Positions 4,656 to 40,109 of a stretch of DNA of 41,528 nucleotides are shown here, piece after piece. The stretch is from assembly GCA_021736215.1 (NCBI GenBank), contig JAIPGI010000010.1:1-41528 (forward strand). The letters are read 5' to 3'. A program made the translations under genes and the position numbers. Numbering within the stretch: the first letter of the stretch is position 1; each line of letters begins with the position of its first letter. The DNA comes from Candidatus Altimarinota bacterium. Its GTDB lineage: Bacteria > Patescibacteriota > Gracilibacteria > UBA4473. The notes under the pieces were generated by a model, which saw only the letters and a program-made list of their open reading frames with translations, had not been told where the DNA came from and made no database searches.

Positions 4656-5168
4656 ATGAAATCCATTCTGATGATTTTGGCTCCCAGTGACTTTCGGGAT
4701 GAAGAATATCTTCATCCGCGCAAAGTATGGGAAGATGCTGGATGGGAAGTTCGCACCGCATCTTCGAGTGAACACTCTGTAGGACGGTTTGGAGAGCAGG
4801 TAGATAATGATTTTCTTCTCACTCAAGTGGAAACAGAGGAATTTGATGCAATTTTTTTTGTTGGAGGTGGGGGATGCCTCCAATATTCAGAGAATGCCAC
4901 TGCTAAAAAGTTGGCCAAAAAATTTCTTTCTGATGCGAAACTCGTAGGCGCTATTTGTGCTGCTCCGAGATTGTTTTTGAAGTGGGGGATACTTTCTGGA
5001 AAAAATTTCACTGGTTGGAACGGAGATAATGCCTTAGAAGGCCTTGGCAATGTCGCAGGTGCTCACTATACGGGCGAGGAAGTCACTATCGATGGACTCA
5101 TTGTAACTGGAGATGGACCAGAGAGTGCTGAAAAAATGGGAAAAATTTTTATGAAGGGAGTGAAATAA
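4656..5168 (+). CDS. DJ-1/PfpI family protein
   Basis: This 170-residue single-domain protein has the class I glutamine-amidotransferase-like fold of the DJ-1/PfpI family. The nucleophile elbow is visible as GAICAAPRLF near residue 98, with a conserved acidic residue in DFRDEEYLHP near 18 and the FVGGGGC loop near 68. Family members act as glyoxalases, deglycases, chaperones or peptidases; the exact activity cannot be read from sequence. The absence of an obvious His directly after the Cys argues against the PfpI-protease subgroup. The ATG begins two bases after the stop of the frameshifted gene, suggesting co-transcription. An AT-rich inverted repeat (AACAAAT...ATTTGTT, 5166-5188) follows the stop. 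Confidence 0.85.
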   Translation: MKSILMILAPSDFRDEEYLHPRKVWEDAGWEVRTASSSEHSVGRFGEQVDNDFLLTQVETEEFDAIFFVGGGGCLQYSENATAKKLAKKFLSDAKLVGAICAAPRLFLKWGILSGKNFTGWNGDNALEGLGNVAGAHYTGEEVTIDGLIVTGDGPESAEKMGKIFMKGVK

Positions 5169-14901: not shown

Positions 14902-15034
14902 ATCAGTCTAGAATGTTTTCAAAAAAGCGGCGAGAGTATAAATTTTACGGGTAAAAGGTCAAAAAAATAATTTTTTGAACTCTTTTTTCATATGTGCCAC
15001 AATGCTGTTCGCGCCTTCTCTCCACAATCATTCC

Positions 15035-16543
15035 ATGAGAAAAATCCCATCCACTATGGCGACTCAGCATCCTGATAATGCGATGCCTTCGCCTTTTTCA
15101 GGAAATAGATATGTTTCTAATGCCGATGAAATTGAAGAATGTTATCGGTGTTTTTCCGAACTCAAAGTAGAAGAATATATGTGGGACTGGGAGGGAAAAT
15201 TCGTAGATGAAGCCGTTATTGACCGACTGTATCAAAACTATCACGACTATTTCAAAAAAAACCAATTGGGAAAAGACAAATTTCTTACCTTTCGTGTTCC
15301 CAATATCTGGCAGGAAACCTCTCACCGACTTCCGAGAGCATTTATGAATCTCATATCAGCAGAACACGCCGCCAAAAAATATGGATTTCATTCACCACCA
15401 ATGTTTGAGGTTATTTTGCCCATGACGACTTCCTCTAGTCAATTGATTTATCTCCAGAAAAAATTTCGAGAGATTGCCAATGCCACAGAAGAGATTTTTG
15501 ATATGAAATCTAATATGAAATACATCGACGTTATTCCCCTTTTTGAAGAAGTGGGCAGTATGGCGGATGCTTTTCAGACGCTAGAGGAATACGTTGATTT
15601 TCTTCAAAAAGAACTGCACCACAAACCAGAATACTTACGAGTATTTATTGCCCGATCCGATCCCGCCATGAATGCTGGACTCATCCCTGCCATGATGGCA
15701 CTCAAATCTGCTGTTTCTTCCTATCATAATTTCGGAAAGGGAAGAGGTATTGAAATTTTCCCATGGGTCGGAGGAGGAAGTCTTCCTTTCAGAGGAGCTA
15801 TTAATCCAGAAAACGCCCCTTTTGTCATTCAGGAATATGGAGGGGTTTCCTCACTCACAATACAAAGCGCCTTTCGATCGGATTATCCGATGGATGATGT
15901 CAAAAAAGCTATTAAGTTATTTAATACCGAACTTCCGAAACGACGAGCTCAATACCGTCATGTAACGAAGGAAGAATCGGTGGCTATCAGAAAATTTAAC
16001 GAAAAAGCACAAACTTTTTTTAGTCATACAATTGAACCACTCGCACCCCTTATCAATAAAGTTGCCTCCCGACTGCCTTCTCATCGTGAACGTGTTCAGC
16101 ATATTGGAATTTTTGGGTATGCTCGTGGCATAGGCAAGGTAAAACTTCCTCGAGCCATTAAATTTACTGGCAGCTTTTATAGTCTTGGGGTACCACCAGA
16201 ACTCATCGGTACTGGACGAGCACTCAAACTCGCCAAAGAAATGAAAATTGAACATTTGGTACGAGAGCTCTACGTCAATATAGTGAGAGACTTGTCTCAT
16301 GCAGGACACTATCTCAATCGTGAAAATCTCGATATTCTCTGTCATCAAAATAAAGTCTGGAAAGAAGTGAGAGATGGAATCCAATATATCGAAGAATTTA
16401 TTGGACAGGAAATTGGGTCGTGTCAGCCTCACCATGTGATTCATCGAAATTTCACTTCCAATGTTCTCCAAAAATTGCAGTTGGATGAAAATATTGATGA
16501 AGATGTTTTGAAGGCGGCAGAAATTCGGAAATCTTTGGGATGA
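15035..16543 (+). CDS. ppcA: Archaeal-type phosphoenolpyruvate carboxylase
   Basis: This 502-residue enzyme fixes bicarbonate onto phosphoenolpyruvate to give oxaloacetate. It is the short archaeal type, about half the length of the usual bacterial enzyme. The diagnostic start is MRKIPSTMATQHPDNA. Further family features are LTFRVPNIWQE near residue 95, GAINPENAPFVIQEYGG near 265, and the C-terminal HIGIFGYARGIGKVKLPRAI near 368 with FTGSFYSLGVPPELIGTGRA near 390. The frame extends 20 codons upstream to a TTG at 14975, but that segment is unlike the family and holds a possible promoter (TTGAAC, 17 bases, CACAAT at 14998-15003), so the ATG at 15035 is preferred. Its oxaloacetate would feed aspartate and pyrimidines. 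Confidence 0.95.
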   Translation: MRKIPSTMATQHPDNAMPSPFSGNRYVSNADEIEECYRCFSELKVEEYMWDWEGKFVDEAVIDRLYQNYHDYFKKNQLGKDKFLTFRVPNIWQETSHRLPRAFMNLISAEHAAKKYGFHSPPMFEVILPMTTSSSQLIYLQKKFREIANATEEIFDMKSNMKYIDVIPLFEEVGSMADAFQTLEEYVDFLQKELHHKPEYLRVFIARSDPAMNAGLIPAMMALKSAVSSYHNFGKGRGIEIFPWVGGGSLPFRGAINPENAPFVIQEYGGVSSLTIQSAFRSDYPMDDVKKAIKLFNTELPKRRAQYRHVTKEESVAIRKFNEKAQTFFSHTIEPLAPLINKVASRLPSHRERVQHIGIFGYARGIGKVKLPRAIKFTGSFYSLGVPPELIGTGRALKLAKEMKIEHLVRELYVNIVRDLSHAGHYLNRENLDILCHQNKVWKEVRDGIQYIEEFIGQEIGSCQPHHVIHRNFTSNVLQKLQLDENIDEDVLKAAEIRKSLG

Positions 16544-24315: not shown

Positions 24316-25755
24316 ATGGATATCGTGAATAAAACTCTCGCTGAACTTTCTCACCTCTTCCGTGAGAAGAAACTCAGTTCTCGAGAAATCACCGATGCGT
24401 TTATTCATGAAATCGAAAAGCATGACAAGAAACTTAACTGTTTCGTAACCAAGACTTTTGATTTAGCGCGAGAGATGGCAGATGCCTCAGATTCCCGAAG
24501 AAAAAATAACAAACTCATCTCTCCCTTAGACGGGATGCCCATCACCCTCAAGGATGTGGTCTGTACCCATGGTATCCGTACTACCGCGAGTTCCAATATC
24601 CTAAAAGATTTCGTACCTCCCTACAATGCGACGGTTTGGAAAAAGCTTCAAGATGCAGGAGTTGTTTTACTCGGAAAAACCAATACAGATGAATTCACCA
24701 TGGGAGCTTCGACGGAAACTTCTGCCTTCGGGGTTACCCGCAATCCTCACGATCCCACGCGGGTTGCAGGAGGAAGTTCGGGAGGGTCCACGGCTGCTGT
24801 TGCCGCAAATTTCTGTGCAGGATCTATTGGAACCGATACTGGAGGATCTATTCGTCAGCCAGCACATTTCTGTGGCGTCACAGGACTCAAGGTAACTTAT
24901 GGACGAGTTTCTCGTTGGGGAACTATTCCTATGGCTTCCAGCCTCGACACCGTGGGGCCCATCGCCAAGACTGCCGAAGACTGCGCTATGATACTTCAGA
25001 CCATTGCCGGGAAAGACGAACTCGATGCGACAACTCCTGACCAGAAAGTTCCCAATTACCTCGATGAAATTAAAAGTAAAGTCTCAGGACTTCGTATTGG
25101 TATCCCCAAAGAATATTTCATTGATGGTATTGATGATGATGTGCGAGAAGTCGTCAATTCAGCTAAAGAAATTCTTCAAGGTCTCGGTGCAGAGATTGTA
25201 AATATTTCGCTTCCTCACACCAAGTATGCGGTGCCAACTTACTACATCATTGCTCCGTGTGAAATCTCTGCCAATATGGCTCGATTTGATGGAATTCGAT
25301 TTGGGTCAGGCAAACACGAAAAAACAATCGAAGAAATTTATACTCAAACCCGTGAATCAGGACTAGGAGACGAAGTCAAACGACGAATCTTGATTGGCAC
25401 TTATGCACTCAGTGCTGGATATTACGATGCGTTTTATCGTAAAGCCCAAAAAGTTCGCACGCTCATCAAACAAGATTTCGACAAAGCCTTTGAAAAAGTA
25501 GATGCCATTCTGACTCCTGTAGCGCCTACGCCTGCTTTCAAAATCGGAAAAAATACAACCGATCCACTCAGAATGTACTTAGAGGACATCTTTACCATTG
25601 CGGCTAGTTTGGCAGGAATTTGTGGAATATCTCTTCCTATGGGGAAATCAGAAGTCGGAGAACTTCCTATCGGCATACAGATTCTCGGACCTGCCTTTCA
25701 CGAAGGTCGGGTCTTGCGTATTGCTCACCAAATTCAGAAAACCATACAAACATGA
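24316..25755 (+). CDS. gatA: Glutamyl-tRNA(Gln)/aspartyl-tRNA(Asn) amidotransferase subunit A
   Basis: A 479-residue amidase-signature enzyme that releases ammonia from glutamine for the GatCAB complex. The Ser-cisSer-Lys triad region is visible: the Lys in PITLKDVVCTHG near residue 75, GGSSGGSTAAVAANFC near 150 and the nucleophile Ser in GTDTGGSIRQPAHFCG near 173. The C-terminus has GELPIGIQILGPAFHEGRVL, which fits the family. A TTG 6 bases upstream is in frame but the ATG is preferred. Its TGA overlaps the carA ATG (ATGA). The gatB partner is 12 kb away on the other strand. Confidence 0.97.
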   Translation: MDIVNKTLAELSHLFREKKLSSREITDAFIHEIEKHDKKLNCFVTKTFDLAREMADASDSRRKNNKLISPLDGMPITLKDVVCTHGIRTTASSNILKDFVPPYNATVWKKLQDAGVVLLGKTNTDEFTMGASTETSAFGVTRNPHDPTRVAGGSSGGSTAAVAANFCAGSIGTDTGGSIRQPAHFCGVTGLKVTYGRVSRWGTIPMASSLDTVGPIAKTAEDCAMILQTIAGKDELDATTPDQKVPNYLDEIKSKVSGLRIGIPKEYFIDGIDDDVREVVNSAKEILQGLGAEIVNISLPHTKYAVPTYYIIAPCEISANMARFDGIRFGSGKHEKTIEEIYTQTRESGLGDEVKRRILIGTYALSAGYYDAFYRKAQKVRTLIKQDFDKAFEKVDAILTPVAPTPAFKIGKNTTDPLRMYLEDIFTIAASLAGICGISLPMGKSEVGELPIGIQILGPAFHEGRVLRIAHQIQKTIQT

Positions 25756-26855
25756 AGTTATTCCTCGCTAACGGTTCTGTCATAGAAGGTCAAAGTTTTG
25801 GAGCAGATATGGAGTGCGAGGGGGAAGTTGTTTTTACCACTGGAATGACGGGGTATTTAGAAATTTTGACTGACCCAAGCTACTTCGGACAAATCGTGTG
25901 TTTTACTTTCCCGCTTATTGGAAATTACGGCGTGTTTGATCAGCAAAAACTTATTGATGACATCGACAAGGTTTATGAATCTTCTCGCATCTGGGTACGA
26001 GGAATTATTTTGTCTGAAGTCTCTGAAAAGTTCTCTCATGCCTTGGGAAAAACATCTTTTGCTCGCTGGCTCAAAAAAAATAATATCCCTGCTCTCTCTG
26101 GCGTAGATACAAGAGCTTTGACACAAATATTGAGAGAACATGGAACGATTTGGGGGAAAATGGGAAATAACCCCCCCAATAAATTTATCGATGAATTAAA
26201 AGGAAGATATGTCCCCTTCGTGAGTCCCGAAAGTATTGAAATACTCGAACCTGAAAAACCTATAGGAAAAACAATTGCTTTTATCGATTGTGGAGCCAAA
26301 AATGGAATTTTTAGAAATTTCCTCCAGAGAGGTATACGAATCTATCGAATGCCCTTCGATCATAATCCATTTGAACTCAAGGAACATTTTGATGGAATTT
26401 TCTTCTCCAATGGACCAGGAGATCCGGCTACTGTGCATGAGACAATTGAGATTGCGGAAGTCGCCCTCCAAAAGAAGATTCCTTTCTTCGGAATTTGTTT
26501 AGGAAATCAAATCTTAGCTCTCGCTGCGGGCGGGAAAACACGAAAAATGAAATACGGACATCGCGGAGTAAATCAACCTGTGGGAGAAATACTAAACCCG
26601 GGTTCAAAAAATTCAGAACCCGGGTTTGTGAAGTATAAAAAGTGCCTCATTACGACCCAAAATCACGGATTTGAAGTCGATGTCAAAAGTCTCCCCTCCG
26701 ACTACCAAGAATGGTTCGTCAATCTCAATGACGGATCCAATGAGGGGATCAAACACAAAATCAAACCCATATTTGCCACACAGTTTCATCCAGAGGCGTG
26801 TGCAGGACCTGAAGATGCCCAATACTTATTTGATGAATTTATTGCTCAACTATGA
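25752..26855 (+). CDS. carA: Carbamoyl phosphate synthase small subunit, with an extra in-frame repeat segment
   Basis: A 367-residue glutaminase subunit that feeds ammonia to CarB for pyrimidine and arginine synthesis. The N-terminal domain (LFLANGSVIEGQSFGAD, FTTGMTGYLEILTDPSYFGQ) and the C-terminal class I glutamine amidotransferase domain are complete, with the nucleophile Cys in PFFGICLGNQILALAAG near residue 250 and the His-x-Glu in ATQFHPEA near 341. Between GHRGVNQPV and CLITTQNHGFEVD the protein has about 13 extra residues (NPGSKNSEPGF...), encoded by a CCCGGG palindrome. It overlaps gatA and carB by ATGA on each side. Confidence 0.95.
   Translation: MKLFLANGSVIEGQSFGADMECEGEVVFTTGMTGYLEILTDPSYFGQIVCFTFPLIGNYGVFDQQKLIDDIDKVYESSRIWVRGIILSEVSEKFSHALGKTSFARWLKKNNIPALSGVDTRALTQILREHGTIWGKMGNNPPNKFIDELKGRYVPFVSPESIEILEPEKPIGKTIAFIDCGAKNGIFRNFLQRGIRIYRMPFDHNPFELKEHFDGIFFSNGPGDPATVHETIEIAEVALQKKIPFFGICLGNQILALAAGGKTRKMKYGHRGVNQPVGEILNPGSKNSEPGFVKYKKCLITTQNHGFEVDVKSLPSDYQEWFVNLNDGSNEGIKHKIKPIFATQFHPEACAGPEDAQYLFDEFIAQL
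26595..26626. repeat. CCCGGG palindrome inserted in frame in carA
   Basis: AACCCGGGTT at 26595-26604 and again at 26617-26626, enclosing a 12-base AT-rich interior. The core 26597-26624 matches 20465-20492 at 23 of 28 positions with identical arms and length. It keeps the carA reading frame and adds a surface-type loop just before the glutaminase QNHGF motif. Confidence 0.85.
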
Positions 26856-28507
26856 AAATATTACTTTTGGGATCAGGGGCACTCAAGATCGGAGAGGCGG
26901 GAGAATTCGACTACTCTGGATCTCAAGCTATCAAAGCCTTTAAGGCGAATGGACACGAAGTCATTCTTCTTAATCCTAATATTGCAACGGTTCAGACTGA
27001 CCCAAAGCTTTTTCGCAAAGACGACCTCGGACCGGACAAAGTCTATTTTCTCCCCGTAACGGTAACGTCTGTTGAAAAAGTTATTCAAAAAGAAAAACCA
27101 AATGCCCTTGCACTCTCTTTTGGAGGACAAACCGCTTTGAATTGTGGACTTGAATTGGAACGTCAGGGAATTTTGAAAAAATATAATATCCAAGTCATGG
27201 GAACTCCTGTATCGGTTATCCAAGCAACGGAAGACCGAGAAATTTTTAAAAAGAAACTGGCGGAAATACGAGTACTAACCCCTCGTTCTATTGCTTCCAA
27301 AAACATATCAGCTGCAAAGAAAGCGGCAGAGAAAATAGGGTTTCCTCTTATTATCCGAGCGGGGTTTGCGTTGGGGGGAAAAGGATCTGGATTTTGTGAT
27401 GATATGAAAATTTTTGAAGAAATGGTGCGGGAAGCCTTTGCTTTTTCTCCACAAATTTTGGTAGAGGAAGATTTGCGTGGGTGGAAGGAAATTGAGTATG
27501 AAGTTGTTCGCGACGGTGCTGACAATGCCATTACTGTCGTCAATATGGAAAACTTTGATCCACTGGGAATCCATACAGGAGAATCCATTGTTGTCTCCCC
27601 TTCAATGACCCTCGCCAATACGGAATACCAAATGCTCAGGAGTATTTCACTCAAGACAATTCGCCATTTAGGAATTATAGGCGAATGCAATATTCAATTT
27701 GCGCTTAATCCTCTTGATGATAGAGACTATCGAGTTATCGAAGTTAATGCTCGTCTTTCTCGGAGCTCTGCACTTGCCTCCAAGGCATCTGGATATCCAT
27801 TGGCGGCGGTAGCGGCAGAAATTATTTTGGGAAAGACTATGCCAGAAATCCCAAATGCTATCACAAAAGTAACCACTTCTTTTTTCGAACCAGCCTTGGA
27901 CTATCTCGCTCTCAAAATTCCTCGTTGGGATCTTAAGAAATTCAGGAAAGTTTCTCATACTATATCAACAGAAATGAAATCGGTTGGTGAAGTGATGGCT
28001 CTTGGACGGAATTTCCCCGAATGTCTCCAAAAAGCTATTCGGATGCTTGCGATAGGGTCGGAAGGGATTTTAGATTCGCCTCTTGAGTTCAAAACCAAAG
28101 CAGAACTCGAAAAATATATTCGAGTCCCCTCCCCAAGTCGTATATTCGCCATAGGACAGGCATTTTTTACCAAGAAATTCTCTCTTGAAAAAATTTGGTC
28201 TCTGACAAAGATTGATCGTTGGTTTCTCCAACAAATTGAAAGAATTACCGACTGTGCCCATGAGATTTCCTCCTGTAGGCGAAATTGGCCAATCTCTCCT
28301 ACACTGTTAAAAAAAGCAAAGCTTTTGGGATTCTCTGATATAGATATCGCTTGTCTCATCAAAAGGAAGCCCTCTGACATTCGGACCCTCCGTAAAAAGC
28401 TAAAAATTCTTCCCGTTACCAAACAGATTGACACCCTTTCCGCAGAATTTCCTGCCAAAACGAATTATTTGTATATGACCTATGCAGGAAAGCAGGATGA
28501 TGTATAG
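26852..28507 (+). CDS. carB: Carbamoyl phosphate synthase large subunit, N-terminal half only
   Basis: A 551-residue protein equivalent to the first half of the ~1070-residue CarB: the carboxyphosphate ATP-grasp domain (about 1-400) and the oligomerisation domain (about 400-551). The start LLLGSGALKIGEAGEFDYSG, the glycine loop AGFALGGKGSGF near 170, and EVNARLSRSSALASKASGYPLA near 297 are typical. It ends cleanly at TNYLYMTYAGKQDDV, the normal junction between halves, so this is a split gene rather than a decayed one. The second ATP-grasp and allosteric half must be encoded elsewhere. Split carB is known in some archaea (for example Methanocaldococcus) and Aquifex. Confidence 0.95.
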   Translation: MKILLLGSGALKIGEAGEFDYSGSQAIKAFKANGHEVILLNPNIATVQTDPKLFRKDDLGPDKVYFLPVTVTSVEKVIQKEKPNALALSFGGQTALNCGLELERQGILKKYNIQVMGTPVSVIQATEDREIFKKKLAEIRVLTPRSIASKNISAAKKAAEKIGFPLIIRAGFALGGKGSGFCDDMKIFEEMVREAFAFSPQILVEEDLRGWKEIEYEVVRDGADNAITVVNMENFDPLGIHTGESIVVSPSMTLANTEYQMLRSISLKTIRHLGIIGECNIQFALNPLDDRDYRVIEVNARLSRSSALASKASGYPLAAVAAEIILGKTMPEIPNAITKVTTSFFEPALDYLALKIPRWDLKKFRKVSHTISTEMKSVGEVMALGRNFPECLQKAIRMLAIGSEGILDSPLEFKTKAELEKYIRVPSPSRIFAIGQAFFTKKFSLEKIWSLTKIDRWFLQQIERITDCAHEISSCRRNWPISPTLLKKAKLLGFSDIDIACLIKRKPSDIRTLRKKLKILPVTKQIDTLSAEFPAKTNYLYMTYAGKQDDV

Positions 28508-32502: not shown

Positions 32503-32635
32503 ATTGTTCATTATTTTTTTATTGAACAAAAAATTTATTCAACAAATAGAGAAAAAATATTTCCTAAAAAACGATAAATAGATGGAAATAAATTCTGAAA
32601 TTTGTCATACTCTTTCGGAATTATTTTTTTGTGAC

Positions 32636-34363
32636 ATGAAATACTCGCAACTCTTTGTGAAAACGCAAAAAGAATTACCAGCGAAAGAAGACTCTCGAAA
32701 CGCGGAACTTCTTTTGAAAGCTGGTTTTATTCAGAAGGAAATGGCAGGCGTGTTTTCCTTTCTTCCCTTAGGACTTCGTGTACTTAATAAAATCGCCCAT
32801 ATCGTACGAGAAGAGATGAATCATGTGGGGGCAATAGAAATCCTCATGTCGGTTCTCTCCCCCAAGGAAAATTGGGAACGAACAGGACGTTGGAATTCCA
32901 TGGGAGTCCTCTATAAACTTGAGACAGCAACTGGAAAAGAAGTCGCACTTTCCCCTACTCATGAGGAGATTGTTACCCCACTGGTTCAAAAATTTTGCAG
33001 ATCTCATAAGGATTTTCCAGTCTGTGTTTATCAAGTTCAGGCGAAATTCAGAAATGAACCAAGAGCGAAGTCCGGATTACTCCGTGGACGGGAGTTTTTG
33101 ATGAAAGATGCTTATTCATTTCATACTTCCCAAGAAGATTTCGAACGATATTACCTCGTACAGAAAAAAGCGTACGAAACCATTTATAATCGTCTCGGCA
33201 TTGGAGATATTACCTACTATGTTGCCGCGTCTGGCGGTGATTTTTCGAAATTTTCTCATGAATTTCAAACCCGTTGTGAAACGGGAGAAGACACAATCTT
33301 TTGTATAGCAGGAACAAAAGATTGTTTTAATAAAGAAATTGCAGAAAGCCAAGCTCCTCTCGTTACCTACGAGGATAAATCCCCTCTTCCGATGGAAGAC
33401 GTGAAGGGAGTTGGAATCATTGGGGTAGAAGAATTAGCAAAATATCTCAAAATTTCTGTTGAAAAAACGACCAAGACCATTCTTTTTGAAACCGAAAACA
33501 AAGGAGAAGTCATCGCTGCCGCAGTAAGAGGAAATTATGATATTAATGAAATCAAACTCAAAACGATTATCGGTTGTAAGGAATTGCGACTTGCCACAGC
33601 AGAAACCGTAAAACGTGTCACGGGTGCGGAAGTCGGGTATGCAGGAATTCTGAACCTCCCAAAAGAAATAAAAGTCTTCATGGATGACTCCATGAAAGGG
33701 CGTATAAACTTCGAAATGGGAGCGAATAAAACTGATTATCATACCATTAATGTCAACTTTGGACGGGACTTACCAGAACCAAAAACTTTTTATGATATCA
33801 AAGTCGCACAAGAAGGAGATATTCATCCCACTAGCGGAAAACCTTATGAAGTGTTTAAGGCGATTGAGGTAGGGAATATATTTCCTCTTGCGACAAAGTT
33901 CTCTTCTTCTTTTAACTTTAAATTTACCGATGAGAATGGAAAAGAATTTCCTATTCTTATGGGGTGTTATGGTATTGGAATCTCTCGTATCATGGGATCT
34001 TTAGTAGAGATTTTTAGCGATGACAAGGGAATGCGTTGGCCGATGGCAGTTACTCCATTTCACATCTATTTAGCGGCCATAGGACGCGATGATGCAGTGT
34101 ATGATCAGGCAGAAAAACTCTACAAAGACTTTCAAAATGTAGGAATAGAAGTGCTTTATGATGATCGTCGCGACAAAAAAGTCGGTCCCGGTCAAAAATT
34201 TGCAGATCACGAACTCATGGGAATCCCCGCACGAATCGTTCTTTCTGAACGCACTCTCGAGGAAAATTCTGTAGAGTTTGTTGATAGAAAAACAGGAAAT
34301 ATTCAAAAAATAAAAATAGATGATATACTTCCTTTTGTTCGTACATTCTTGAATGTCTCATAA
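32636..34363 (+). CDS. proS: Prolyl-tRNA synthetase, bacterial type
   Basis: A 575-residue class II synthetase that charges tRNA-Pro. Motif 1 (GVFSFLPLGLRVLNKIAHIV), motif 2 (YQVQAKFRNEPRAKSGLLRGREFLMKDAYSFH) and motif 3 (MGCYGIGISRIMGSLVE) are all visible. Between motifs 2 and 3, residues about 225-390 form the INS/YbaK-like editing domain, marking the bacterial form, and the C-terminal anticodon-binding domain follows (FHIYLAAIGRDDAVYDQAEKLY...DDRRDKKVGPGQKFADHELMGIP). An ATG 54 bases upstream is in frame but adds no family likeness. The stop overlaps the next gene by 11 bases. Upstream 32503-32635 holds a TTGTTCA / TGAACAA hairpin and no gene. Confidence 0.97.
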   Translation: MKYSQLFVKTQKELPAKEDSRNAELLLKAGFIQKEMAGVFSFLPLGLRVLNKIAHIVREEMNHVGAIEILMSVLSPKENWERTGRWNSMGVLYKLETATGKEVALSPTHEEIVTPLVQKFCRSHKDFPVCVYQVQAKFRNEPRAKSGLLRGREFLMKDAYSFHTSQEDFERYYLVQKKAYETIYNRLGIGDITYYVAASGGDFSKFSHEFQTRCETGEDTIFCIAGTKDCFNKEIAESQAPLVTYEDKSPLPMEDVKGVGIIGVEELAKYLKISVEKTTKTILFETENKGEVIAAAVRGNYDINEIKLKTIIGCKELRLATAETVKRVTGAEVGYAGILNLPKEIKVFMDDSMKGRINFEMGANKTDYHTINVNFGRDLPEPKTFYDIKVAQEGDIHPTSGKPYEVFKAIEVGNIFPLATKFSSSFNFKFTDENGKEFPILMGCYGIGISRIMGSLVEIFSDDKGMRWPMAVTPFHIYLAAIGRDDAVYDQAEKLYKDFQNVGIEVLYDDRRDKKVGPGQKFADHELMGIPARIVLSERTLEENSVEFVDRKTGNIQKIKIDDILPFVRTFLNVS

Positions 34364-35135
34364 AAAAAATACCTATCGAAACGATATTCTTCTTCTTGTT
34401 GGCTTTCTTCTTTTGGCAGTAGGAGTTTCTCTCTGGGGTCAGACAACTTTTTTAGTTTCTATCTTTTTATTTTTTGGGTTTCCTGCCGCATGGTTGTCAT
34501 ATCGGAAACCCGAAAGAATTAAAAAACTTTTACTCTTTTCTGTGTTTTTTACGATTCCCTTCGTATTTCTTATCGACCATTTGGCAGTGTTAGACCAGTC
34601 ATGGCACGTCCCGACAATTTTTCCTTTTCGTCTCTTGGGAACCATTCCGATAGAAGATTATATATGGAGTGTTTTTTGTGTATATTTAGTCACTATGTTT
34701 TATGAGTATTTTTTGGATAAATATCGAGACAAACTGTTGTATCAGTACATGAAGTATTTTTTTATTCTTTCGGGTTTGGTTCTCATAATTTTTTTTACAC
34801 TCTTCTTTGCAAAACCCGATGCTTTGTATATTCAGTACACGTATCTTTTTGTTGGTATTTTTTTCGCTCTTTTACCAACTTTTGTCTTTCTTTTTCATTA
34901 TCCAAAATTGCTTTTTAAATTTTTTGCAACAGTGCCATATTTCTTTGTATTATTTTTGGCAATGGAATTGGTAGCTCTCCATTTAGGACACTGGAATTTT
35001 CCAGGAGAACATTTTGTCGGTTGGATAAATTTATTGGGACAAAATTTCCCATTTGAAGAACTTTTGTTCTGGATATTTTTATTTCCTGTTTCTATACTTT
35101 CTTATTATGAATACTTCAATGATGATCGACGATAA
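34353..35135 (+). CDS. Lycopene-cyclase-like membrane protein (CrtYc/CrtYd type, two fused halves)
   Basis: A 260-residue protein with about 7 membrane spans. Each half carries a short motif of the heterodimeric lycopene cyclase family: RLLGTIPIEDYIWSVF near residue 93 and LGQNFPFEELLFWIF near 230, the P-x-E-[DE] pattern next to a membrane helix. GHWNFPGEHFVGW before the second motif also fits. Known fused CrtYcd proteins cyclise lycopene ends. No crtE, crtB or crtI gene is near, so the real substrate is open. It overlaps proS by 11 bases and its stop lies within the RNase H 5' region. Membrane role certain, substrate uncertain. Confidence 0.6.
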   Translation: MSHKKNTYRNDILLLVGFLLLAVGVSLWGQTTFLVSIFLFFGFPAAWLSYRKPERIKKLLLFSVFFTIPFVFLIDHLAVLDQSWHVPTIFPFRLLGTIPIEDYIWSVFCVYLVTMFYEYFLDKYRDKLLYQYMKYFFILSGLVLIIFFTLFFAKPDALYIQYTYLFVGIFFALLPTFVFLFHYPKLLFKFFATVPYFFVLFLAMELVALHLGHWNFPGEHFVGWINLLGQNFPFEELLFWIFLFPVSILSYYEYFNDDRR

Positions 35136-35577
35136 TTTATTTTCTTCAGCACCCATGAAAGATAATTCTAAGCCTCGCAAAGGAATTTTGTACTGTGATG
35201 GAGGCAGTCGCCAAAACCCTGGCAAGTCTGCTGGAGCGGCAGTTCTCTATGATGATAAAAAGAAAGAAATCGCTTATGGTGGGGTCTATTGCGGTGTCCA
35301 AACGAATAACTTTGCCGAATATGCTGGGCTTATCCACGGACTTCAATTGGCGATAGAACATGGATTTACTGACATAGAGGTTGTTCTAGATTCTAAACTT
35401 CTTGTCGAACAGATGAGTGGTCAGTGGAAGGTCAAAAATGCGAACATTAAGCCTTCCTGTGAAAAAGCAAAAACTCTTTGTGAACAATTCCACTCCGTTC
35501 GATTCCGTCATGTTCTTCGTCACAAAAATACCGTTGCTGATAAAATTGTGAATGACGTGTTGGATCAGCACGAATGA
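35107..35577 (+). CDS. rnhA: Ribonuclease H type I
   Basis: An RNase HI-fold enzyme that removes RNA from RNA-DNA hybrids. The four acidic active-site residues are visible: Asp in GILYCDGGSRQNPGKSAGA, Glu in NNFAEYAGLIHGL, Asp in IEVVLDSKLLVEQMSG and Asp in HKNTVADKIVNDVL. The domain is about 130 residues. The start is uncertain: ATGs at 35107, 35119, 35122 and 35155 are all in frame. The first three overlap the previous gene, and 35155 would leave only a short lead before the domain. No Shine-Dalgarno sequence decides it. Last gene of the proS unit. Confidence 0.9.
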   Translation: MNTSMMIDDNLFSSAPMKDNSKPRKGILYCDGGSRQNPGKSAGAAVLYDDKKKEIAYGGVYCGVQTNNFAEYAGLIHGLQLAIEHGFTDIEVVLDSKLLVEQMSGQWKVKNANIKPSCEKAKTLCEQFHSVRFRHVLRHKNTVADKIVNDVLDQHE

Positions 35578-38924: not shown

Positions 38925-40109
38925 ATGAAAATCAATACTCTCACTTCCGCTGCTATTAAAAATAAAGTTGTACTCATTCGAGTGGATTTCAATGTTCCAC
39001 TCAAGGCAGGAAAAGTCTTGGAAAATACTCGTATCGCCGAATCAATACCAACATTTCGGTTTCTGCTCAAAAATGGAGCCAAGCAAATTCATGTACTTAC
39101 CCACGTTGGACGTCCAAAGGAAGGTCCCACTCCCGAACTTTCGACAAAAAATCTAATTCCTGAATTTGAAAAACTTCTTGGCGAAAAAGTCGAATACCGC
39201 GCAGACTTCACAGCGGGGAAAGGGAAAATTCAGCTCCATGAAAACGTGCGATTCTATCCTGGAGAGAAAAAATCAAATCCTGAATTTGCGAAAGAAATTT
39301 TGAAAGGAACGGGAGCGGAAGTATTTGTTAATGATGGGTTTGGAGTATCTCACCGTGGGGACACCTCAGTTGTCGGATTTGCCGATCACATCCCCTGTGT
39401 AGCAGGATTATTAGTCTCCAAAGAAATCGAAGCTCTTTCGCCCTTCCTGAGTAAGAAAAAAATTCCGGGTCTTATGATTGTTGCGGGAGGACTTAAATTA
39501 GAAACCAAAGTGCCCGTCCTTATGCACTTTGCTCAAACCGCTGATCACATCCTTTTGGGAGGAGGGGTAGCAAATAATTTTGCTGTAGCTCAAGGATTCA
39601 ATATTGGTGAGAGTTTTTATCAAGAAGAATTTGTAAAGGATGCTCGTCGAGTGCTAAAAATTGCGAATCAAAACAAAACAGGTATTCATATTCCTATAGA
39701 CGTTATTTGTGCAGATGATCCAGAAAGCGTAAATACCGTAGACCTTCCTCTAGAAGATGTGGTTGGAAGTGCTAAAATTTTTGATATAGGATTGCATACC
39801 ATTGCGAGTTATATTGAACTATTAGAACACGCAAAAATCATTATCTGGAACGGTCCTTTGGGACTTTTCGAAAAAGATCAATTTGAAACGGGAACTAAAA
39901 AAATATTGACGTTTTTGAGTACGCATCCATCTGCCAAGGTTATTTTGGGAGGGGGAGACACGCTTGAATCTCTCAATAAATTTGGCATTCCTCAGAAGAA
40001 ATTTTTTCATGTTTCTACAGGAGGGGGCGCAATGCTTGAGTTTTTGGAAGGGAAAGAATTACCAGGGATAGAACAATTAAAAGCGAAGAATAAGACAGAG
40101 AAAAGTTAG
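38925..40109 (+). CDS. pgk: Phosphoglycerate kinase
   Basis: A 394-residue glycolytic kinase that passes phosphate between 1,3-bisphosphoglycerate and ADP. Both lobes are complete. The N-terminal lobe has VVLIRVDFNVPLKAGKVLEN near 15, HVGRPKEGP near 61 and ENVRFYPGE near 106. The hinge region is near 190. The C-terminal lobe has LLGGGVANNF near 206, NGPLGLFEKDQFETGT near 308 and ILGGGDTLESLNKFG near 345, with the nucleotide motif VSTGGGAMLEFLEGKELPG near 364. Length is normal. It has its own promoter and is divergent from gatB. No gap or tpi lies next to it. Confidence 0.97.
   Translation: MKINTLTSAAIKNKVVLIRVDFNVPLKAGKVLENTRIAESIPTFRFLLKNGAKQIHVLTHVGRPKEGPTPELSTKNLIPEFEKLLGEKVEYRADFTAGKGKIQLHENVRFYPGEKKSNPEFAKEILKGTGAEVFVNDGFGVSHRGDTSVVGFADHIPCVAGLLVSKEIEALSPFLSKKKIPGLMIVAGGLKLETKVPVLMHFAQTADHILLGGGVANNFAVAQGFNIGESFYQEEFVKDARRVLKIANQNKTGIHIPIDVICADDPESVNTVDLPLEDVVGSAKIFDIGLHTIASYIELLEHAKIIIWNGPLGLFEKDQFETGTKKILTFLSTHPSAKVILGGGDTLESLNKFGIPQKKFFHVSTGGGAMLEFLEGKELPGIEQLKAKNKTEKS

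Follow-up and report, generated by a model that had tools for sequence, protein, structure and literature searches.

The DNA analysed here (the window), 41,528 nucleotides from Candidatus Altimarinota, corresponds to contig C14 of a 93.4% complete, 17-contig genome of 1.01 Mb, which derives from a tiny, probably host-dependent bacterium. The gene under study, termed X, occupies positions 34353-35135 of the plus strand, starts with ATG and encodes a predicted polytopic membrane protein of 260 residues with tandem lycopene-cyclase-like domains. About eight hydrophobic segments are present, four in each half, and these also appear in a low-confidence AlphaFold model. The first domain (residues 32-120; 34446-34712, plus strand) scores 22.9 bits against PF18916 (E 1.3e-4), and the second (residues 161-256; 34833-35120, plus strand) scores 21.0 bits against the CrtYc-domain profile of Candidate Phyla Radiation (CPR) proteins. 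Each half carries a PxE[DE] acidic motif, as an earlier sequence-only reading of the window had noted, and the limits which that reading gave for the open reading frame (ORF) are also correct. On the plus strand, P99-I-E101-D102 (34647-34658) aligns to the PVEE of CrtYc and the PLED of CrtYd, and P233-F-E235-E236 (35049-35060) to the PVEE of CrtYc. The same reading placed X in a proS-rnhA unit, and both neighbors are borne out by model matches: proS (proline--tRNA ligase; 32582-34363, plus strand) by TIGR00409 at 494.9 bits, and the RNase HI-like rnhA (plus strand; longest ORF 35053-35577, likely start 35119) by PF13456 at E 2.1e-22. From the ORF coordinates the end of proS overlaps the start of X by 11 bases (34353-34363), which suggests that the two genes may be translationally coupled. 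The end of X would overlap rnhA by 17 bases (35119-35135) if the latter begins at its likely ATG, and a relative of X (L035/L006) overlaps its rnhA over an equal length (5126-5142).

Profile comparisons make a convincing case that X belongs to a tandem two-domain subfamily homologous to the lycopene-cyclase superfamily (CrtYc/CrtYd; PF18916/TIGR03462). Relatives were gathered by search, and the 12 full-length members that were aligned are 24-56% identical to X. Five of these 12 match PF18916 and five match TIGR03462 at E <= 0.01 (best E 4.3e-8, for TIGR03462), all three members of alignment set A2 match PF18916 at E <= 1 (best E 4.4e-7), and the member in genome G369 clears the PF18916 cut-off at 29.8 bits. 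The first and second halves of the subfamily are homologous to one another (hhalign, 96.4%, E 1.4e-9). The second half aligns at 93.6% (E 2.2e-7) with CrtYc domains taken from seven crt-linked CPR proteins, and the first half aligns with CrtYc at 71.2% (E 3.7e-5) and with CrtYd at 91.6% across 31 columns. Across six comparisons, none of 60 column shuffles equalled the real score. The reversed-profile controls stayed at or below 1.2%, and below 0.3% for the CrtYc matches of both halves, save for a value of 40.9% when the subfamily was compared with the other orphan type (type B, below). The Glu residues that the sequence-only reading had likened to those of CrtYc and CrtYd lie in motif columns that are in register in the profile alignment, where PIED and FPFEE coincide with the CrtYc motif PVEE, and D75 and W84 match the conserved D and W of that domain. 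Our canonical comparators are CPR proteins assigned by their crt neighbors, plus the Pfam and NCBIfam models, because searches of plasmids for a characterised cyclase with L076, L077 and L090 as queries gave no match. In the tree the X subfamily is a single clade (support 0.998) whose position is unstable, hhalign placing it nearer the other orphans and the tree nearer the crt-linked group. Solved structures yielded no meaningful relative of X; an ABC permease structure found at E 0.046 vanished with a deeper alignment.

The 12 full-length members share ten invariant columns (M1, W84, P91, Y117, E118, F197, E205, W214, P233 and E253). Both acids of the second motif, but only one of the first, are retained throughout: positions 235 and 236 are both acidic in 15 of 15 sequences (L032 dropped), and position 101 is acidic in all 14 sequences that cover the first half (with L033 and L034 omitted). 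Each motif of every full-length member is followed by Tyr-Glu (Phe-Glu in two of the 12), a feature found in only some crt-linked proteins.

The order of the acid motifs is reversed relative to the crt-linked CPR proteins. X has ED and then EE, and the subfamily as a whole has ED (or DD, DE, EN, EV, EQ) first and EE (or DD, ED) second. The opposite arrangement, EE followed by ED, is found in five fused crt-linked CPR proteins, and the split crt-linked pair L081 has EE and then EN. Scores from half-specific hidden Markov models are 18.5 bits with CrtYd versus -0.3 with CrtYc for the N-terminal half of X, and 23.6 bits with CrtYc versus -2.2 with CrtYd for the C-terminal half. On these whole-half scores X departs from the canonical order of CrtYc first and CrtYd second, and among the 12 members the N-terminal half is nearer CrtYd in nine and the C-terminal half nearer CrtYc in all 12. 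The discriminator correctly assigned all 26 canonical halves when each locus was left out in turn, and did so again with the motif masked. With larger sets, hhalign gave 93.9% with CrtYd and 87.5% with CrtYc for the N-terminal half, and 95.0% with CrtYc and 15.2% with CrtYd for the C-terminal half. Once the nine motif residues are masked, the N-terminal half of X does not clearly favor either profile (-1.0 and -2.0) and its C-terminal half leans to CrtYc (5.8 versus 2.4); among the 12 members, the masked N-terminal half leans to CrtYc in eight and the C-terminal half is nearer CrtYc in nine. Because masking removes the N-terminal preference, while canonical halves keep theirs, we claim only a reversed motif order and not the true domain permutation (CrtYd-CrtYc) that the whole-half scores had suggested.

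The known CrtYc/CrtYd cyclases (CrtYcd, CrtYef and LitAB; heterodimeric or fused) are likewise built from tandem hydrophobic domains of ~90-100 residues, and the pattern D...W...G...PxE[ED]..[FW] is common to them and X. They differ from X in their motif order, in an identity of 19-20% to the X subfamily in profile alignments, and in that the X genome has no crtB, crtI or crtE family matches. The crtI-crtB-crtYcd clusters of other CPR bacteria (L076 in G116, L077 in G435, L078 in G225, and others) belong to the same phylum and superfamily as X, and some of their CrtYcd are fused proteins of a size like that of X. At 15 loci, from 14 genomes with both a PF18916 match and a phytoene/squalene synthase family gene, crtI-like genes lie at most five ORFs away at 14 loci and crtB-like genes at 12; GGPP (geranylgeranyl diphosphate)-synthase-like genes occur at seven and UbiA-type genes at six or more. 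These gene labels were assigned by inspection of the sequences and are supported by the positions of PF01593, PF00494 and PF00348 matches. The compact clusters recur in several CPR lineages (L076-L081, others), some with GGPP-synthase-like and UbiA-type genes. Published work already describes carotenoid genes in Patescibacteria, namely the bacterioruberin genes of Lake Baikal bins (PMC9948471). Among the open-access papers listed in our literature searches, none deals with an orphan lycopene-cyclase branch in CPR as far as titles and opening abstract lines show.

A second kind of orphan, type B, comprises proteins of ~230 residues (for example L096, Methylophaga thalassica WP_007146145.1 and Ilyobacter polytropus WP_013388869.1). 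Type B proteins resemble X in having two domains, in having no crt genes seen nearby and in sharing a slot after pgk in family f38, and their profile similarity to the X subfamily is 97.9%; they are separate from it in the tree and have a different consensus (GGI...YE). NCBI already labels them 'lycopene cyclase domain-containing', and orphan domains as such are therefore not new. Both named species are cultured bacteria in which the type B gene is carried on a plasmid. In Methylophaga thalassica (L152) it is flanked by metal-efflux and arsenic genes, and in Ilyobacter polytropus (L154) it lies directly before a prenyltransferase gene.

The sequence-only reading had remarked that crtE, crtB and crtI are missing around X, and this holds for the genome as assembled: genome-wide searches gave no match to PF00348 (crtE type), PF00494 (crtB) or PF01593 (crtI type). 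Since genes of these families were not found, the genome has no visible lycopene supply for a CrtYcd function. It does encode an undecaprenyl diphosphate synthase (PF01255). Two genome sets were used to follow the subfamily further, one of 99 genomes (the X genome and relatives) and one of 379 genomes sampling the phylum. Among the 99, the subfamily occurs only in the X genome and G012; among the 379, it occurs in 14, the X genome included, and 12 of these 14 carriers are at least 90% complete. The copies in G386, G198 and G435 are short or cut, and that in G345 is in two pieces with TAG. Interior stops in lycopene-cyclase-domain matches (five matches; G211, G345, G352 and G207) are all TAG, with no TAA or TGA among them, and would mean either that these genes are broken or that TAG is recoded.

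Of the 379 genomes, 27 have a gene of the phytoene/squalene synthase family (PF00494). PF18916 matches occur in 47 genomes, above the cut-off in 41 of them, and co-occur with PF00494 in 14 of the 47 (Fisher p 1.9e-7), an association that arises because true crt clusters exist. The X subfamily shows no such association, only one of its 14 carriers having a PF00494 match and 13 none seen (Fisher p 1.0), and of the 55 genomes with either an X-subfamily or a PF18916 match, 41 have no match to the phytoene synthase family. X is thus not a one-genome oddity: its subfamily is thinly spread through the phylum and is mostly uncoupled from carotenoid synthesis. When the 14 phylum carriers are taken together with G012, PF00348 is found in three of 15 and PF01593 in three, one of them only a 61-position piece. 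Overall, no lycopene supply was found in the X genome and no native isoprenoid shared by the carriers was found.

The genomic setting of X is that of an accessory. The order proS-X-rnhA is kept in a second genus, where X is 56% identical; among named records, the closest that shares this order comes from a Candidatus Gracilibacteria metagenome-assembled genome. In G001, which belongs to the same genus, rnhA follows proS directly and X is missing. Our slot survey covered 19 proS loci: proS adjoins an RNase H gene with no X between them in G003, G004, G005, G009 and G011, an unrelated ORF occupies the slot in G010, X is present in G000 and G012, and the other loci have different neighbors. Because the slot is filled in some relatives and empty in others, X is an accessory that this conserved operon has either gained or repeatedly lost, and it looks like a dispensable passenger of housekeeping genes rather than part of a dedicated pathway. 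A mobile-element origin was considered and dropped, the protein having no match in viral contigs, plasmids or phages.

A different slot links the various orphan types. In family f38 of the genome set, the position after pgk holds an X-subfamily gene (L027), type B genes (L119; partial L107) and, in a fourth genome, a split CrtYc/CrtYd-like pair (L110); the occurrence of all types in one slot supports common descent. More generally, a lower-glycolysis cluster (gap, pgk, eno, gpmI, recJ and rnhA, in varying completeness) repeatedly hosts a lycopene-cyclase-like gene in f38 and one other family (L027, L107, L110, L119, L097). BLAST clustering places RNase H genes near six orphan loci (two of the X subfamily, four others) and gap, pgk and gpmI near five each (one and four), a proximity that is housekeeping synteny and carries no functional clue. 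No Pfam family occurs in more than three of the X-subfamily neighbor proteins (74 of 101 listed were scanned; L024, L030, L031 and L034 lie near contig ends), or in more than two of those of the other orphans (86 of 114 scanned). A link to metal homeostasis, from DUF5676, ZIP and Cus/ars genes near some orphans, is only a hint.

In CrtYcd cyclases, ring closure probably begins when the acids protonate one end of the polyene and proceeds through the resulting carbocation. Our preferred, tentative reading is that the X subfamily may keep acid chemistry on, or binding of, a scavenged long isoprenoid outside carotenoid synthesis. The acids at 101, 235 and 236 (E or D), together with E205, E118 and E253, would be candidate residues for this chemistry, in which a C=C bond of the isoprenoid might be protonated and the chain cyclised or isomerised, or the chain might at least be bound. 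The putative substrate would come from the host or surroundings, because neither a lycopene-making gene nor a PF00348 prenyl diphosphate synthase was found in the genome, and such uptake would be in keeping with the scavenging lifestyle attributed to CPR bacteria. A more specific version, which we consider rather unlikely, is that this CPR subfamily with a lycopene-cyclase fold and reversed motifs modifies a different lipid of host or prey membranes, and so has a new isoprenoid- or lipid-modifying activity, which the automatic label 'lycopene cyclase' would conceal.

On its own, X does not reach the curated cut-off of the superfamily: its PF18916 score of 22.9 bits (25 bits in a whole-genome search) compares with a gathering score of 27 and covers the first half only, and NCBIfam gave no match. 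Several observations weigh against our reading. The second half of the subfamily reaches only 5.0% with the CrtYd domain of the seven crt-linked proteins. The AlphaFold model is poor (mean local confidence, pLDDT, 55.3; global fold score, pTM, 0.42), and the active site cannot be checked on it. Only seven of 14 sequences have an acid at position 102, the fourth of the first motif, and the Pro of that motif is replaced in two of the 12 full-length members (L025 and L026); full cyclase chemistry of the first half is therefore doubtful for the subfamily. The neighbors of subfamily genes are housekeeping or unrelated genes, with none pointing to a pathway. PF01255 occurs in only four of the 15 carriers (the search covered 43 of 56 genomes, the 13 with crtB being left out), so that no native isoprenoid substrate common to the subfamily emerges.

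The sub-threshold scores of X itself would fit a chance resemblance, in which X is an unrelated polytopic membrane protein and its PxE[ED] motifs are coincidental. So would the match of two of the 12 members to 7TMR-DISM_7TM (best E 6.7e-5), the large share of the half-to-half preference carried by nine motif residues, and the high score of the reversed type B profile, from which it follows that membrane composition inflates some scores. Against this, both halves match CrtYc profiles at scores that no shuffled or reversed control equals, the motif columns are in register, the f38 slot is shared, and individual members match TIGR03462 strongly or clear the PF18916 cut-off, making coincidence very improbable. 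The likeness to lycopene cyclases proposed in the sequence-only reading thus stands at the level of the family, through hhalign and its controls, and fails for X alone under the curated cut-offs; X is a variant of a known superfamily, and a real and correctly read feature. An ordinary carotenoid pathway hidden in the unassembled part of the genome might be entertained given the incomplete assembly and the crt clusters of other CPR. This is equally improbable, since crtB, crtI-type and PF00348 genes would all have to be missing together, and the crtB family is likewise unseen in 13 of the 14 carriers, of which 12 are at least 90% complete. Closer still to refutation is the suggestion, offered as an example in the sequence-only reading, that X makes beta-carotene from a scavenged carotenoid as a retinal precursor for a rhodopsin. 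A class relative, G088, does carry a microbial rhodopsin gene (PF01036, E 1.9e-43), so that the class does include a rhodopsin carrier and our search is able to detect such genes, yet G088 has no match to X. The X genome itself has no PF01036 (rhodopsin) or PF15461 (Brp/Blh) match, the latter model giving a signal in two of 14 control genomes and only below the cut-off. No rhodopsin above the cut-off was found in any of the 56 genomes with lycopene-cyclase-like proteins, where three weak sub-threshold pieces were seen, or in the 14 built-in control genomes. The broader options raised in the sequence-only reading, a host-derived substrate or a different role, would still be compatible with the data.

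The alternative to be taken most seriously is that of a repurposed scaffold, in which the inherited lycopene-cyclase fold no longer acts on isoprenoids and instead contributes to structure, transport or regulation at the CPR membrane. Half of the subfamily lacks an acid as the fourth residue of the first motif, which speaks for a changed reaction, and a repurposed scaffold is therefore almost as likely as retained chemistry. The scarcity of crtB, PF00348 and PF01593 families among the carriers fits it, as do the invariant columns that reach beyond the acid dyads (W84, P91, Y117, E118, F197, E205, W214, P233 and E253) and the position of a type B orphan between metal-efflux and arsenic genes on the Methylophaga plasmid. 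On the other side, positions 101, 235 and 236 are acidic in every sequence that covers them, down to 24% identity, which suggests chemistry rather than a scaffold. Should orphan branches indeed use a scavenged lipid, as our preferred reading supposes, they would offer a way to learn which membrane components CPR bacteria acquire from other cells. The label 'lycopene cyclase domain-containing' invites annotators to infer carotenoid or retinal synthesis in genomes that show no such pathway.

Some smaller observations accompany these results. The G088 rhodopsin gene (L003; G088:C23:3331-4035) contains nine in-frame TGA codons, as expected if TGA is an amino acid codon there. Fourteen of the 27 PF00494-bearing genomes were searched for rhodopsin, with none above the cut-off. 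Within the window, folC follows rnhA on the opposite strand (TIGR01499, 180.4 bits), and trigger factor and gatB are also confirmed by NCBIfam. The sole NCBIfam match of pgk (38925-40109) is to a bifunctional PGK model, below the cut-off. Finally, from their translations, the regions 14975-16543 and 25620-28507 appear to encode a putative archaeal-type phosphoenolpyruvate carboxylase and carA/carB-like genes.

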